From Colwellia sp. Arc7-635 (GTDB taxonomy: Bacteria; Pseudomonadota; Gammaproteobacteria; Enterobacterales; Alteromonadaceae): a stretch of DNA of 64,000 nt. The notes beneath the pieces were generated by a model. The model searched no databases, was not told the DNA's origin, and was given only the letters and a program-made list of their open reading frames with translations. This document shows, piece by piece, positions 12,280 to 18,842 of this stretch (positions within the stretch are counted from its first letter, which is position 1; every line of letters begins with the position of its first letter). The DNA is taken from assembly GCF_003971255.1 (NCBI RefSeq), contig NZ_CP034660.1:4402001-4466000 (forward strand), given 5' to 3'. Both the position numbers and the translations under genes were made by a program.

Positions 12280-12720
12280 TTTATCTGCTCAGCGCCTAAA
12301 GTGTAGCTCGTCAAAAATAATGAGCATTGCGTCAGTCACCAAAGCCGTCGTTCACATTTGAAATATTAACGATCACTTTGTGCGCTTTGCTGACATTTAA
12401 CTAAAATTTTTAGACTTAGGTTTTCTAATGACATTAATCAACAAAATACAAACTAAGGTTAGTCCATATCGCTATATCAGGAATCAATATTGTTCTTATA
12501 AAAATAATTTTTCCCTGCATGTACATCTATACAGTTGAAGTGAATTCCTTATTTCTCCCTGTAAAAAGGAAAATTTCCTGCTTTCACCTAAAGTCACTTT
12601 AAATATGTCACGCTAATTGATTGAAGTATCTGATGTATTTAAGTATTGTTATGAAAAGATAAAGTTAAAAGAAGGAAATAATCCGTATTTAAACAAGGAT
12701 TATTTCCTCATAATAAGTTG
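12280..12720. other. Intergenic region left of the cassette array
   Basis: No gene and no integron integrase is visible. A 12-bp perfect stem lies near the right end at 12673-12708 (AGGAAATAATCC with GGATTATTTCCT). It sits 12 bp before a GTTAGGGC word that looks like the right core of an attC. It could be the inner stem of a degenerate attC or a terminator. Confidence 0.5.
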
Positions 12721-12739
12721 TTAGGGCCTCAAGGATAGT

Positions 12740-13237
12740 ATGCTGACTCCTGCTCAAAAATTAGAAACAATTAAAGCTTTCGGTTTGATTGCAATGACAG
12801 TCGGTGGTGGTGAACTTAAAGTCAATTGGGCTATGAGTTTACTTGAACAGGGGATCGAAACCGAAAACCTTTGTGTTTTAGCGTCTTTGTTAAACCCACT
12901 AAATGAATTTGAAGTTGATGAGTATTTTAATATTGTAATATCGGAGTTGGATCTAAAAGCTCAAAATTCTGAAGAAGCTGTTGAGGGTTACGCTAAAATT
13001 TTAGCCCATGAAGTTATTAGAGGTATTATTTCTCCAGAAATCGGAGCTTCAAAAATATATGATGCTAATGTGTTTTTAGATTACCCTGAATCATTTGCAG
13101 AATATACTATCTATGAAGATGAATGGTATTGTGAACATATTAATGGTTGGTCTAAAGAAAAAAGGCGGGAAGAGATAATTAAAGCTTGTAAAGTTTCATA
13201 TGGCTTGCTCGAATACCCTACTCTAAATAAGGCCTAA
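12740..13237 (+). CDS. Hypothetical protein of cassette 1
   Basis: The 165-residue, acidic, soluble, mainly helical product has no recognised family. Its stop codon TAA lies inside GCCTAAC (13232-13238), an attC R'' core. The cassette begins at TTAGGGC right of G12720, nearly complementary to that core, as expected for a mobile cassette. The ATG at 12740 is 20 bp into the cassette, after AAGGAT. The middle (AEYTIYEDEWYCEHINGWSKEKRREEI) is Trp/Tyr/Glu-rich and may be a protein-binding surface. The downstream neighbour is an IS110-type element inserted in the cassette's own attC. Confidence 0.6.
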   Translation: MLTPAQKLETIKAFGLIAMTVGGGELKVNWAMSLLEQGIETENLCVLASLLNPLNEFEVDEYFNIVISELDLKAQNSEEAVEGYAKILAHEVIRGIISPEIGASKIYDANVFLDYPESFAEYTIYEDEWYCEHINGWSKEKRREEIIKACKVSYGLLEYPTLNKA

Positions 13238-13238
13238 C
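13232..13238 (+). repeat. attC R'' core of cassette 1 (left part of an interrupted attC)
   Basis: GCCTAAC fits the RYYYAAC consensus and holds the stop codon of cassette 1. The rest of the site is found only after the IS110-type element, at 14779-14862. Confidence 0.55.
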
Positions 13239-13269
13239 AACACGCCCTGAGGTGGACAACAAGTATAAA

Positions 13270-14532
13270 TTAGCTATTTATTGCAAATTTTAACAGTGGC
13301 GAACCTCTTCGTTTCAATGCCTCTAAATATTTAGACTCATCGTATGGTGTATTAGTTTTCCAGCACCTAAATACTATCCTAATCCACTTGAAAGCGAGCG
13401 ACCTTATAATACTGTTATGTGGTTTTCCTTTGCTTTTTTGTTGCTCATAATAAGCCTTTGCCCAAAATGAATAACGTATCGAAAACCCCGCCCATTCAAC
13501 GAAGGTTTGCCTTAAAAAAGTTGGGCAACTGTATCGCCAATGAGTCCACATCTTCTTACCACTACGTTCAATAACCGGCGCAATACCTGCGTATTTTTGC
13601 AACTCAGAGGCATCATTGTAACGGTCTCTTTTGCTGCCAAAGGCGACTAATAATCGTGGTGAGAATTGCTGTCCTGCACCAGGAAGGCTATCAAAAATAA
13701 CGTTGTCATCTTGCGCTTTGTAAGCCTTTTTTATTACTTTATTTAGCGATTGAATTCCCTTTAGCAATACTTTGAATTGCGCAATAAGCACACCAACTAA
13801 AAGTTGATTTGGCTCTATCACTCCGGTGTCTTCGGTTAATTCCATAGCACTCTTAATACCCAAAATACGCGCCTCATTAACGTGTGCGTAGTGTGAATTG
13901 TGGCTATTAAAAAAGTCTAATAGTGTTTGTTTCTTTGCTCTTTTGGCGTGAGCAAGTGATGGCCATTTACTGATGAAATCACAGAAGATAAAGGTATCTT
14001 TTTCTTTAAACCATTCAAGTGCTTGCGGGTAGTAATTCTTGAGTGAAGCCGTTATTTTATTGGATAAATCTACACTGTCTTGCACTAAGTTTCGTCGATA
14101 TTCAACCAACTGAGTTAGGGAGCGCATAGCGGCTGATTCAGGTTCAATGACGCTGAGTTTGTCCATATGTAGGGTGAGTATTTCTACTTGTATCAGCGCA
14201 TCAGACGGGTCATCTTTCGCGCCACTTGGCGTAAACGCTTTACGGTATTTAGCAACGGTTGAAGGATTGATGGTAAATAAAGTGAGGTGACTGTATTTGG
14301 CGAGCGCATAAATAAGAGGCCCTTTTTTGAGTTCGCAAACTACAGCTATTTGTTGGTTTGGGTATCGTTTTTTAAGGTTCATTGCCCATTCGTGTAGTGC
14401 TTCGGCTTTACTCTTAATAATTGAGTAGTGGTACTTTTCTGAATCAACCGGATGCTCACAGATGTCATGTTTTTTATCTGCCCAATCAATGCCGATTAAG
14501 GCAGCGAAATCATTAACGTTATATGCTTTCAT
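13270..14532 (-). CDS. IS110-family transposase (IS110 group)
   Basis: The 420-residue recombinase has an N-terminal DEDD RuvC-like domain: GIDWADKKHD with Asp near residue 16, VCELKKGPL with Glu near 67, and SGAKDDPSDALI with the final Asp pair near 105. A coiled-coil middle follows, then a C-terminal Tnp_20 domain beginning LPGAGQQFSPRLLVAFG and containing the Ser-bearing IAPVIERSGKK. IS110 enzymes pair target and donor DNA with a bridge RNA and need both the DEDD acids and the C-terminal serine; all appear present. The frame is intact, so the element could be active. Confidence 0.9.
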   Translation of the reverse strand: MKAYNVNDFAALIGIDWADKKHDICEHPVDSEKYHYSIIKSKAEALHEWAMNLKKRYPNQQIAVVCELKKGPLIYALAKYSHLTLFTINPSTVAKYRKAFTPSGAKDDPSDALIQVEILTLHMDKLSVIEPESAAMRSLTQLVEYRRNLVQDSVDLSNKITASLKNYYPQALEWFKEKDTFIFCDFISKWPSLAHAKRAKKQTLLDFFNSHNSHYAHVNEARILGIKSAMELTEDTGVIEPNQLLVGVLIAQFKVLLKGIQSLNKVIKKAYKAQDDNVIFDSLPGAGQQFSPRLLVAFGSKRDRYNDASELQKYAGIAPVIERSGKKMWTHWRYSCPTFLRQTFVEWAGFSIRYSFWAKAYYEQQKSKGKPHNSIIRSLAFKWIRIVFRCWKTNTPYDESKYLEALKRRGSPLLKFAINS

Positions 14533-14776
14533 TTTGCAGCTCCTGAGCGTAAAGTTAGAAGTGGAATGTGCTTAAATCTCGTTTCTCGCAGGTCTTATAG
14601 ATAGTCGTGGTCGGCAATCCCTGAGTATGCGTTTTGAAATGAGTTGCTCTGTTGGCTCGAACGTCTTGTTAGAAACATTGAATGTTTGCCGTTCAATATT
14701 CGTAACCAACAGAAGCATGTTCCACTTAATATAAGAGTAAGTTACTTTATTGAATTAAGTGGCTTGGTCGAACTAT
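14533..14776 (-). ncRNA. Probable bridge-RNA region in the left end of the IS110-group element
   Basis: This non-coding part upstream of the transposase start is rich in stems. TCTGTTGG (14648-14655) pairs with CCAACAGA (14706-14713). Inside it are AAACATT-G-AATGTTT (14673-14687) and an alternative ATTGAA/TTCAAT pairing. CCACTTAAT (14722-14730) pairs with ATTAAGTGG (14754-14762). In the IS110 group the bridge RNA is encoded exactly here. The exact RNA ends and binding loops are not determined. Confidence 0.5.
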
Positions 14777-14778
14777 AA

Positions 14779-14862
14779 GGCGTTCAAACGGACAAAAAAC
14801 AGTTGGCTGTTTCACTCCGTTCACAATTTTAGCCAACAATTTTTGCCGCTTAACGTGGCGTT
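14779..14862 (+). repeat. attC body (L'' to R') left between two IS elements
   Basis: L'' GCGTTCAAACGG pairs with L' CCGCTTAACGT, with one extra base in L'' as in real attC sites. The inner arms AGTTGGCT and AGCCAACA pair around a central loop. R' is cut after GGCGTT by the next element. The R'' is missing on the left and is found at 13232. Confidence 0.75.
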
Positions 14863-14878
14863 GGTATGACTCCCCACG

Positions 14879-15224
14879 TCAAGTTAAACCGTAAAATATC
14901 CTGCTTTTTTTCGAGCCATAATTTTTTCTCTTTTCAAGTTGAGTGAGTTAACACATAGAATGAAGCAAGTAATTTCGTCGGTTATCATGCTGATATTCGT
15001 GGATTATTAACTTATTGGTTAACAGTGCCTACCTTACTTGTTCCGTCGTGACACCTAATTTCAGTCTATGCTCGTGGTTCAATAGCCGCTAGGCTATTGC
15101 CATCCTAACGCCCTCGGTGGTTGTGCCACACCCGATGCTTGACTCCATGCGCTAACTCAAAACTTTTTCTCATTTAATCTTTGCTCTTTTTCATGTTGTT
15201 GATTTTTTACCACTCACTTTTTGA
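14879..15224 (-). ncRNA. Probable bridge-RNA region in the right end of the IS1111-group element
   Basis: This is about 350 bp of non-coding DNA between the transposase stop and the inverted repeat. It contains AATAGCC-GCTA-GGCTATT (15085-15102) and a GTGG-TTGTG-CCAC hairpin about 20 bp further on. In the IS1111 group the bridge RNA is encoded downstream of the transposase, which is this position. RNA ends are unknown. Confidence 0.45.
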
Positions 15225-16379
15225 TTATGCGGGTACCCTTGAAATACGTGTACTTGGGTCAACAGGCACTAATATTACTTCTCGTGATATCGCCCAGATA
15301 TAAGCGAGCATTTCACGGGCAATGGCAGCGACAACAATATTACGATGCTTACCGCGTTGCATGAGGCGCTTGTATCGTCGGCAAAGCCTTAATTGGGCTT
15401 TCCAAGCAATATCAATAACGACCTTAGGCAGTGTTTCTTGCCGCTTTTGTAGCTCGGTTGACACGTTTGCGTTGTGCTTATAGGTTTGAGCCCCTTCAAT
15501 GAGTAACCGCCGTGCTCGGCCATTACCACATTTAGTGATTGCACCTTGTTTTCGGTTGTCGCCACTTGAGTTTTCTTTGGGCACTAATCCTAAATAAGCC
15601 ATGAGTTTTCTCGGGTGGTCAAAGCGTCTTAAATCACCTAACTCAGCAATAGTGCCTACAGCGACTAAAAAACGAATACCTCGCATCGCTTGCAATGCTT
15701 GAACAACTGGATAATAGCGCCATAGTTTTGCTTGATGTGCTAATTCATTAACTAATCGTTCAACGCGCTTAATACGTTCGGTAATGGTTTGTATCATCTC
15801 TTGCAGTACAATTTGTTGGCTTGGATGCGGCAAAACTAACTCAGTTAGCCAACGTAAATGTTGATTTGACCAGTTATCTTTTACCTTGGTGCTAATGTTA
15901 TTACGTAAAAACAGACCTTTAAGTTGGTATTTAGCATCCTTTAAATCTTTCATGGCAGTTTCGCGTGCTCGGGACAAGTCACGAATAGCTTCATCTTCAG
16001 GCTCAGGGACATAAATAGGCGTTAAGTCTTCAGATTTAAGCAACTTAGCCAGTTTCATCGCATCACGTTTATCTGTTTTTACTTTATCCCCTGGCTTTTT
16101 AGGGATAAGCGAAGGCGCAACGACATAGCAGCAATGACCTAAGCTCGTCAGTAGTCGATAAATCCAATAGCCACAGGGGCCTGCTTCATAAACAAAATGC
16201 AATGTCGCATTGGGATATTTAGATTGATATTGGCTAGCAAGTTTAGTGATTGCGGCTTTAGTTGTTTTAATTTTTCCTTGATGAACCGTTTTTGCGCCAC
16301 GTTGGTCTTCAATATGTGCAACTTCAGTCGATACTTTATGGGTATCTAATCCAATAAAAACTATGTTATGTTTACTCAT
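15225..16379 (-). CDS. IS110-family transposase (IS1111 group)
   Basis: The 384-residue enzyme has an N-terminal DEDD domain: FIGLDTHKVS with Asp near residue 12, FVYEAGPCGYWIYR with Glu near 65, and VKTDKRDAMKLAKLL with the Asp pair near 103. A C-terminal Tnp_20 domain contains MRGIRFLVAVGTIAELGD and a Ser-rich LGLVPKENSSGDNRKQG. It shares little sequence with the neighbouring IS110-group transposase, so the two elements are not copies of each other. The frame is intact. It reads opposite to the cassettes. Confidence 0.93.
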   Translation of the reverse strand: MSKHNIVFIGLDTHKVSTEVAHIEDQRGAKTVHQGKIKTTKAAITKLASQYQSKYPNATLHFVYEAGPCGYWIYRLLTSLGHCCYVVAPSLIPKKPGDKVKTDKRDAMKLAKLLKSEDLTPIYVPEPEDEAIRDLSRARETAMKDLKDAKYQLKGLFLRNNISTKVKDNWSNQHLRWLTELVLPHPSQQIVLQEMIQTITERIKRVERLVNELAHQAKLWRYYPVVQALQAMRGIRFLVAVGTIAELGDLRRFDHPRKLMAYLGLVPKENSSGDNRKQGAITKCGNGRARRLLIEGAQTYKHNANVSTELQKRQETLPKVVIDIAWKAQLRLCRRYKRLMQRGKHRNIVVAAIAREMLAYIWAISREVILVPVDPSTRISRVPA

Positions 16380-16472
16380 GCTAGCCTCCAGTTTTAGTTG
16401 TTTAACACACTAATTATGGCTCTGGTTTTACTAACCCACGAATTTGGAGGCTAGCACCTCGTGGGGAGTCAT

Positions 16473-16479
16473 TATGTCT
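16473..16479 (+). repeat. Right remainder of the interrupted attC R' / start of cassette 2
   Basis: TATGTCT follows the IS1111 right repeat. Together with GTT on the other side of the element it restores GTTATGT. That is the complement of ACATAAC, the R'' core of the next attC at 17250-17256, as expected for the two ends of one cassette. Confidence 0.6.
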
Positions 16480-16628
16480 ATGTGTTTTAATCATGCCGTC
16501 GTACATATCAATAGTTGATTATCATTTTGATAGTAACTATACTTGCTACATATGTGCGGTATTCGCACACTTTTCATCAAGGTGCTAATTATGTATCAAG
16601 AACATGATAGAGATGGTCTTTAAATTAA

Positions 16629-17255
16629 TTGTTGAATTGCAGCGATAAGGATAGTCTCTGTACTACAATTCTATCTCATATAGACCAAACTCCTGTTTTA
16701 ATTCCTGCCTCGATTACTGCTGTTATAGCAGTGTTCGGTATAATGCTAACTGTAATATCCTTAAGATCTAGTTATAAACTAGCTAGAACTAAAAACTCTT
16801 TAGACTTTGAAAAAGCAATTGAAGACTCAACGCGTTATTCGAAATCTCATATAGAAATAGCCTCGTTCAAAAACCAAACTAACTTAGATGTTTCTGCTCT
16901 TAAAGCAATAGCAAACGATCCCAAATTAGATTATGAAGCTTATAAAGCAGCTACTAATATATTGAATTGGTGGGAAAGAGGAGCAAATGGAATTAAATGT
17001 AAAGCATATCGAGAAGATGTTTTATTTAAGGTTTATTGCTCAGAAGTTTTAAATATTTCTAATTACCTCATGCCTTTTATTGAACAAAGAAGAGATACTC
17101 GAAATAATCCTTATATATTTAAAGAATTTATCTGGCTAAATAAACGATGGAGTCGCAAACGGAGTAGGCAAAAAACCTTCAAACCAAGTAAAATCCTCAC
17201 TGTTTTCATTATTGCTACATTAACATTTACATTTCTGTATATAACAAACACATAA
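16629..17255 (+). CDS. DUF4760-like membrane protein of cassette 2
   Basis: The 208-residue product has an N-terminal membrane segment (ITAVIAVFGIMLTVISL), a soluble middle, and a second membrane segment at the very C-terminus (ILTVFIIATLTFTFLYI). The middle (ILNWWERGANGIKCKAYRED, later FIEQRRDTRNNPYIFKEF) resembles DUF4760 proteins. Their function is unknown; some occur in mobile or defence regions. The start is TTG 16629, the first codon of the open frame. An ATG at 16743 would remove part of the first helix. Its stop TAA lies inside the attC R'' core, the normal cassette arrangement. Confidence 0.6.
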   Translation: MLNCSDKDSLCTTILSHIDQTPVLIPASITAVIAVFGIMLTVISLRSSYKLARTKNSLDFEKAIEDSTRYSKSHIEIASFKNQTNLDVSALKAIANDPKLDYEAYKAATNILNWWERGANGIKCKAYREDVLFKVYCSEVLNISNYLMPFIEQRRDTRNNPYIFKEFIWLNKRWSRKRSRQKTFKPSKILTVFIIATLTFTFLYITNT

Positions 17256-17346
17256 CAAGTTACTCAAACGGACGCTAAACAGTTGGCTAGCACTCGTTCC
17301 TCGTACATTTTAGCCAACAATTTCTCGCCGCTTAGTAAGGCGTTAT
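17252..17346 (+). repeat. attC site of cassette 2 (complete)
   Basis: The order is R'' ATAAC, L'' GTTACTCAAACGG, inner arms AGTTGGCT and AGCCAACA, L' CCGCTTAGTAA, and R' GTTAT. L'' carries one extra base against L', the strand-choice base of attC hairpins. The site is 95 bp. Confidence 0.88.
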
Positions 17347-17351
17347 ATGCA

Positions 17352-18074: not shown

Positions 18075-18144
18075 TATAACAAGTTGCTCAAACGGACGCT
18101 GATCTTCCTCCGATAAAACAGTTGGCTTTTAATTAGGCGTTATA
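18075..18144 (+). repeat. attC site of cassette 4 (shortened)
   Basis: TATAAC, TTGCTCAAACGG and AGTTGGCT are present, and the site ends in GGCGTTATA. The second inner arm and most of L' are missing, leaving 70 bp instead of 95. Hairpin pairing is poor, so the site is probably weak or inactive. Confidence 0.75.
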
Positions 18145-18149
18145 GTTTT

Positions 18150-18443
18150 CTAGAGTGCGGGGTTAACATCCATACTTTTATGTAATATACGCACTATAAG
18201 GATTTGATTGTCTTTGTGCTCTTTGTAATAAATCACATGACTAGCTTGTGGGTATTTGCTGTAACCTTCTCTAATGTAATCGCAATTCATACCTAACTCG
18301 GGTTCAGAGGCTAACAACTTAAATGTAGTATCTAATACCTTTAGGTAGTCGTTTCGCTGAGATACTCCCCAAGTTATTTGGGTATATTTAGCTATTTTAA
18401 TTAAGTCTGTTTTGGCTTCAGAAGATAATACAAACTTATTCAT
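18150..18443 (-). CDS. parE: ParE/RelE-family toxin of cassette 5
   Basis: The 97-residue product has the ParE fold marks: LSSEAKTDLIKIAKYTQITWG, then LKVLDTTFKLLASEPELGMNCDYIREGY and a final strand VRILHKSMDVNPAL. ParE toxins poison DNA gyrase; related RelE toxins cut mRNA, and the sequence resembles ParE more. It is 3 bp downstream of its antitoxin gene. The pair reads against the cassette direction, as is common for toxin-antitoxin cassettes, which carry their own promoter. Such modules stabilise arrays. Confidence 0.85.
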   Translation of the reverse strand: MNKFVLSSEAKTDLIKIAKYTQITWGVSQRNDYLKVLDTTFKLLASEPELGMNCDYIREGYSKYPQASHVIYYKEHKDNQILIVRILHKSMDVNPAL

Positions 18444-18446
18444 TTC

Positions 18447-18698
18447 TTAACTAGACCTATCATGGTTATCTTTATCTAATTCAGTCAATAAGCTTTCATA
18501 GCTGTATTCGGCAACGCCACTCTGTTCGCCTTGGATTAACATATTACGTAAATTTAAAAGCTTAGCTTCTTGATCTTCCAAGGCTCTTAATCCAGCTCTA
18601 ATAATTTCACTTGCTGAGCCATAGCGACCAGTGCTAAGTTGTTGGTTTATAAACTGATCAAAATGATCGCCTAGTGTTACGCTTGTGTTTTTAGCCAT
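18447..18698 (-). CDS. parD: ParD-family antitoxin of cassette 5
   Basis: The 83-residue ribbon-helix-helix protein starts MAKNTSVTLGDHFDQFINQQ and contains YGSASEIIRAGLRALEDQEAK, the ParD DNA-binding core. A C-terminal acidic tail binds and neutralises the toxin. ATG 18698 is chosen because upstream in-frame starts add a hydrophobic leader that the family lacks. It is first in the operon, before parE, and would repress its own promoter through the palindrome just upstream. Confidence 0.85.
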   Translation of the reverse strand: MAKNTSVTLGDHFDQFINQQLSTGRYGSASEIIRAGLRALEDQEAKLLNLRNMLIQGEQSGVAEYSYESLLTELDKDNHDRSS

Positions 18699-18716
18699 AA
18701 TATAAAACCTCATAAG

Positions 18717-18741
18717 TACCAATATATAATACATTATGGTA
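18717..18741. promoter_or_regulatory. Candidate ParD operator/promoter palindrome
   Basis: A 25-bp imperfect palindrome runs from TACCA to TGGTA with an AT-rich centre, 19 bp upstream of parD. It overlaps the likely -10 region. ParD proteins bind such sites to autoregulate. Confidence 0.5.
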
Positions 18742-18748
18742 TAAAAAA

Positions 18749-18842
18749 TATAACAAGTCACTCCAAAGGACAAATAACAGTTGGTTTTTGCTCCTTCGGC
18801 GCTTATTAGCTAATGTATTCTATGTGGCATTAGTTAGCGTTA
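18749..18842 (+). repeat. attC-like site of cassette 5 (degenerate, array end)
   Basis: It starts TATAACAAGTCACTCCAAAGG, keeps ACAGTTGG, and ends TTAGCGTTA. Pairing between the arms is weak. It is the last cassette-type repeat before normal chromosomal genes resume. Confidence 0.55.

Follow-up and report, generated by a model that had tools for sequence, protein, structure and literature searches.

What parts the two ends of a single attC, the recombination site of an integron cassette, by more than three kilobases? The question is posed by a 64,000-nucleotide stretch of the Colwellia sp. Arc7-635 genome (the window; positions 4402001-4466000 of a 4.74-Mb single-contig genome), in which the pieces of an attC-shaped site behind cassette 1 are separated by two open DEDD transposase genes, both with PF01548 and PF02371 above cut-off. 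One gene belongs to an IS110-group insertion sequence (IS) at 13241-14778, the other to an IS1111-group IS at 14863-16479. A preliminary description of this DNA saw two different IS110-superfamily elements within one attC-shaped site, which the present analysis supports, and called the insertion between R'' and L'' less expected. A one-off event is rejected here, because other copies in the genome and relatives elsewhere lie at the same attC position, to which a whole group of related elements is regularly directed. Very probably, 13241-14778 represents an IS110-type group that is specialised on attC and guided there by a predicted bridge RNA (seekRNA), and the opposite end of this attC is occupied by an IS1111-attC element.

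Two fixed positions within attC

The genome was searched with an attC covariance model trained on 22 attC from the same genome, which foreign attC may escape, yielding 96 matches at an expectation value (E) <= 0.01. As 150 of 2876 first-look candidates were scored, this number is possibly a lower bound; the two weakest matches were dropped, and a few low-scoring ones among the 94 used may be false. TAACAAG follows the first three bases in 74 of the 94. The only full-length integron integrase of the genome (448 bits) lies at genome 2853155, far from the window.

Element ends were set by comparing the junctions of other genome copies, a check that the preliminary description had proposed and that fixed the ends of both elements. 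The genome carries three copies of the IS110-group element and eight of the IS1111-group element, with 100% identity within each set across the aligned element. When examined against the 94 attC matches, all three IS110 copies occupy the R''/L'' spacer in the same orientation, and all eight IS1111 copies lie in R' after the GGCGTT of an attC. Two fixed attC positions, kept in 3/3 and 8/8 copies, are more than chance. At the left junction the three IS110 copies read (C/A)TAACAA followed across the boundary by CACGCCC, and at the right junction ACTATAAG, then the remaining spacer. The shared core is AA on the attC strand (TT in the IS orientation), found at 13239-13240 and again at 14777-14778.

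The IS1111-group element is 1617 bp long and ends, in 8/8 copies, in 13-bp perfect subterminal repeats with a 3-bp extension (GGT) and a 7-bp extension (TATGTCT). Terminal extensions of 7 and 3 bp are described for IS1111 family elements in the sections of PMC11187229 available to us. The R'' core with the stop codon of cassette 1 and the L''-loop-L' body are both found where the preliminary description had put them (Table 1), while its restart of R' as TATGT at 16473 has to be given up: TATGTCT (16473-16479) follows the subterminal repeat in all eight copies and is the IS1111 extension, and R' resumes at 16480. That TATGT is present twice near 16473-16483 is the sole reason why the misplaced boundary gives agreeing letters. 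The proposed complementarity between the restored R' and the R'' of the next attC persists at the corrected boundary; a script located the next attC for four of the eight copies, and its R'' complements the corrected R' in all four. The copy at 469102 (GTTATGC / GCATAAC) is compatible with the corrected end but incompatible with the 16473 version.

Relatives of the IS110-group element at attC

Relatives were drawn from a species-representative collection, from which 80 of 133 were kept and the junctions of 39 of these 80 inspected. The guide analysis set comprises the 23 relatives whose left end lies in the contig, excluding L050, L111, and L115 (partial genes). The model identifies attC at the left end of 15 of the 23 at E <= 0.05 and of a 16th at E 0.29; hosts of model-positive members include Colwellia, Cognaticolwellia, Glaciecola, Paraglaciecola, Pseudoalteromonas, Psychromonas, and Psychrobium. 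Loci L051, L052, and L056 have no model match and are attC-like by eye. The right junction is TTGTTA in 20 of 22 readable relatives, the exceptions being L047 (TTATTA) and L055 (TGGTTA).

None of 25 more distant relatives has attC at the left end by model; two of these 25 have a match elsewhere in the locus (L098, E 1.5e-10; L069, E 0.72). In a transposase tree of 42 sequences, 14 attC-labelled and two unclear rows group together with support of 100/99. Its input was 47 loci plus the window, from which six with internal stops were dropped; L081, L112, and L114 were left out, and the attC labels are partly by eye (L051, L052). The more distant relatives L059-L110 show a different common junction pattern, for example CAGGGCGTGAAGCGGAC at the right end.

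A predicted bridge RNA that tracks its target

The region upstream of the IS110 transposase gene folds with a z score of -3.52 (0/200 shuffles as good), and a 24-sequence consensus of this region features a stem-closed target loop; two-sided changes affect 9 of the 30 predicted pairs. Within the loop, a small hairpin separates the leading left guide from the right guide (TTGAACGGC and CTAACAAG in the window element), and the left guide also precedes the right one in IS110-type elements as portrayed in the available parts of PMC11208160 and PMC11187229. The guide pair spells TTGAACGGC-TT-GTTAG in the IS orientation, or CTAACAAGCCGTTCAA in attC, covering R'', spacer, and L''. By eye, CTCAGGG and CTATAAG correspond to the two ends of the element itself and are candidate donor guides. 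As a prediction from fold and comparison, 13241-14778 carries a bridge RNA with target guides matching the attC junction.

Across all members, the match of each left guide to its own target scores 186, compared with a permuted mean of 139.6 (standard deviation 5.25; 0/20,000 permutations). The corresponding values are 116 versus 96.6 for the window and 14 closer relatives (74-90% identity; 0/20,000), and 70 versus 47.7 for nine distant relatives (61-73%; 0/20,000). A local-match variant of the test gives 0/5,000, and the own guide scores above the mean of the others in 21 of 24 cases. In L055, the right guide deviates in the same way as the deviating right junction. Within the genome, the degenerate guide pattern TTGAAYGNCTTGTTA has six matches, namely five listed attC and one truncated attC; the backward control has none. 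The guide-spelled 16-mer occurs with <= 2 mismatches at 19 places: nine listed attC, one truncated attC, three in the element's own guide region, and six elsewhere.

We propose that the upstream non-coding region of 13241-14778 encodes a bridge RNA that would read R''-spacer-L'', and that the transposase, directed by this RNA, would place the element in one orientation at the AA following R''; element anatomy and guide-target covariation both point this way. The IS1111-attC element would use R' at the opposite end of the same attC. Both insertions would lock cassette 1 by parting R'' from R'.

Weighing the interpretation

Several results weigh against guided targeting of attC. In 3 of 24 cases the own guide does not outscore the mean of the others (L041 ties, L046 and L058 are below), and kinship inflates the permutation test, though the result also holds within subgroups. 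Six of the 19 places of the 16-mer fall outside attC, and at <= 3 mismatches the guide pattern has 91 matches, hardly above the 82 of the backward control. Among the relatives, seven of 23 have no attC model match at the left end, and the left ends of L053, L054, L055, and L058 are ambiguous. The script scored R'/R'' complementarity at relatives as weak (4 to 6 of 7 in those where it was located), and located none for L041 and L044. Furthermore, the left guide matches the window target at 8 of 9 positions and the other two targets at 7 and 6. Such imperfect matches would also suit a group that reads attC as a folded hairpin and not as a linear sequence matched by the guide, and IS1111-attC targets are described, in the part of PMC11187229 available, as lying within a potentially folded structure. 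However, guides and targets covary both within and between subgroups, the insertion point is in the spacer, and the guide pair covers R''-spacer-L'' without a gap. We regard hairpin recognition as unlikely.

The double occupancy could itself be a mechanism, if the two elements attracted each other or one made the site a better target for the other. Each of the two targets attC and is present in several copies in this genome. However, three and eight copies distributed by chance over 94 sites would share at least one of them with a probability of ~0.24, so double occupancy needs no special cause. None of the ends of this IS1111 was seen, by eye, at R' in the inspected flanks of the relatives. 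We therefore reject a special attraction as unneeded and consider it highly improbable; the IS110 and IS1111 insertions look independent.

Origin of the split site

Rejoining 13232-13240, 14779-14862, and 16480-16483 generates a site of 97 nt from R'' to R', with R''/R' complementarity, an L''/L' hairpin, and a cassette boundary. Without R'', it is 95.7% identical to the intact attC at genome 1345747. The preliminary description had expected that removing both elements would restore an attC. A well-formed attC is indeed obtained, but its status as the ancestral one is doubtful because a duplicate of cassette 1 carries a different body. This duplicate, at genome 2310024, matches at 99% over 504 nt, and the attC behind it is intact and has the same R''. 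Each of the three other full-length duplicate cassettes in the genome (counted only if aligned up to attC at >= 99%) keeps the same attC body, and it is this discrepancy that raises the suspicion of a chimeric site. An allelic empty site was sought in 16 other genomes of the genus; cassette 2 was not found in any of the 16, two of which have short matches of 30 and 34 nt, and the search was equally negative for the cassettes that precede the remaining two IS110 copies.

Because insertion is orientation-specific, IS110 copies that share an array lie as direct repeats, and attC halves of different cassettes could have been joined if two such copies recombined. We lean slightly toward this history for the present site. 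The competing account, to which we give somewhat less than an even chance, is that one ancestral attC took both insertions and that the body changed in the other copy of the cassette or by attC gene conversion. The well-formed rejoined site and its close resemblance to an intact attC agree with this account, and attC bodies of the same type do occur behind different cassettes in the genome. It must be set against the 3/3 other full-length duplicates that keep their body, the only mismatched pair being the one with IS110 between R'' and body. More tentatively, IS110 copies programmed by bridge RNA may act as direct repeats whose recombination deletes or swaps cassettes and leaves chimeric attC independently of the integrase, with each insertion freezing its own cassette. 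This suggests a route for freezing or rearranging cassette arrays far from the integrase gene.

Features of the locus and its surroundings

Table 1. Features in and around the split attC, in window coordinates
Feature	Position	Strand	Basis or remarks
Open reading frame (ORF) of cassette 1	12740..13237	+	165 aa; no Pfam family at E 0.01; 99% duplicate at genome 2310024
attC R'' core GCCTAAC	13232..13238	+	Overlaps cassette 1 stop codon; same R'' behind duplicate cassette
Shared core AA, left copy	13239..13240	+	Junctions of 3 copies
IS110-group element, including one AA core copy	13241..14778	-	Ends from 3 identical copies
IS110-group transposase, 420 aa	13270..14532	-	PF01548 and PF02371 above cut-off
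Predicted bridge RNA region (target loop and donor loop), upstream of transposase gene	14581..14714	-	Fold; 24-sequence consensus
Predicted left target guide TTGAACGGC	14688..14696	-	Loop position; tracks own target across relatives
Predicted right target guide CTAACAAG	14665..14672	-	Loop position; target comparison
Candidate left donor guide CTCAGGG	14619..14625	-	Matches element's own right end, by eye
Candidate right donor guide CTATAAG	14594..14600	-	Matches element's own left end, by eye
attC body: remaining spacer, L'', loop, L', first R' bases (GTT)	14779..14862	+	attC model 77.1 bits, E 4e-15; alignment to intact attC
IS1111-group element	14863..16479	-	Terminal extensions 3-bp 14863-14865 and 7-bp 16473-16479; 8 identical copies
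IS1111 subterminal inverted repeat ATGACTCCCCACG	14866..14878	+	Copy junctions
IS1111 subterminal inverted repeat CGTGGGGAGTCAT	16460..16472	+	Copy junctions
IS1111-group transposase, 384 aa	15225..16379	-	PF01548 and PF02371; NF033542 263 bits, over cut-off
IS1111 downstream non-coding region	14866..15224	-	Candidate guide GGCGTTA
Remaining R' (ATGT)	16480..16483	+	Copy junctions; rejoined alignment
ORF of cassette 2	16629..17255	+	208 aa, DUF4760
Intact attC of cassette 2 (R'' ACATAAC)	17250..17348	+	attC model

Several attC in the genome depart from the usual sequence. TAAG replaces TAACAAG in six of them (genome 473274, 2384141, 2386263, 2384625, 3365512, and 3367740; loci L153, L161, and L166, together with 2383664), and the attC at genome 2383664 reads AGCTAACTATAAG. 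CTATAAG is also an IS110 end, and these TAAG and AGCTAACTATAAG sites could be footprints of imprecise IS110 loss or of simple slippage. Two further attC, at window ~18075-18145 and at genome 1020459 (L155), are altered directly after L'' by TGATCTTCC(C/T)CCGATAAAAC, which resembles the end of another insertion sequence. The cassette array that contains the split attC also encodes a ParE-like toxin and ParD-like antitoxin pair on the minus strand (window 18150-18773).

The stretch immediately upstream of cassette 1 (window ~12360-12725) contains an inverted repeat, GGAAATAATCC...GGATTATTTCC, plus TCATAATAAG(C/T)TGTTA. It reappears where other cassette arrays of the genome begin, with 96% to 78% identity, the last ~56 nt being best kept, and similar stretches are present at L153, L154, L155 (two places), L156, L157, L162, and L167. 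Matches of 33-38 nt occur in seven genus mates and in one genome of another family. By eye only, the stretch resembles that between the integrase gene and its first cassette, and may represent an attI-like leader that has been dispersed without the integrase gene.

Comparison with known systems

The main interest lies in the group behind the split site, whose IS110 elements apparently rely on an RNA guide to reach attC from its R'' end. It is established that IS1111-type elements insert at one attC end (PMC11187229, in its available part), and the second element behaves like the known IS1111-attC group, as the preliminary description had recognised. The abstract of PMC11616780 refers to attC sites disrupted by IS110, and the accessible text of that paper names ISPa21, of the IS1111 group; for Shewanella integrons, the accessible portion of PMC9229058 reports no IS interrupting attC. 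We found no report in the open-access literature of an IS110-group element, with its upstream guide region, targeting the R'' side, an absence that is weak evidence. Retroelements also insert at attC sites, according to the parts of PMC9229058 and PMC10011109 at hand, by an unrelated mechanism.

The nearest named element among the 30 of 538 records listed is ISEsa2 (IS110 family), with ~48% identity to the window transposase. Enterobacterial relatives at about ISEsa2-like identity (e.g., L070 and L084) have a different target, which is not attC by model. IS621 and ISEc21, as presented in the available sections of PMC11208160 and PMC11187229, are like 13241-14778 in their upstream non-coding region, left-then-right guides, and a two-base core within the guide pairing. 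The targets described there are not attC, ISEc21 being directed to a conserved stretch of IS3 transposase genes, and the core is CT in IS621 in contrast to TT (AA on the attC strand) in 13241-14778. In the group described here, one guide would read the constant R'' and another the variable spacer/L''; its members supply a set of naturally occurring guide-target pairs on which the evolution of guides can be tested.

The IS1111-attC elements (ISKpn4, ISPst6, ISPa25; ISPa21) resemble both window elements in their DEDD transposase, guide RNA (predicted for 13241-14778), and fixed attC position and orientation. The element at 14863-16479 fits this class, with subterminal repeats, 3- and 7-bp extensions, a downstream non-coding region, and insertion in R', a fixed place at one attC end. 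A search of its downstream region for the full guide pair found the GGCGTTA half and not the second half. For 13241-14778, the transposase scores 88.7 bits for PF01548 and 50.1 bits for PF02371, both over cut-off, and 138 bits for NCBIfam NF033542, just below the cut-off of 140. Its non-coding sequence amounts to ~246 bp upstream of the transposase gene versus ~30 bp downstream, and neither a downstream guide region nor, by eye at the ends, subterminal repeats of 11-13 bp were found. The element works like an IS1111-attC element yet is not one: IS1111-attC elements have their guide region downstream and use one attC end (R' here), whereas the guide region of 13241-14778 is predicted upstream and the insertion lies in the R''/L'' spacer. 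If this is true, the IS1111 and IS110 guide-RNA branches have both settled on integron recombination sites, from opposite ends.

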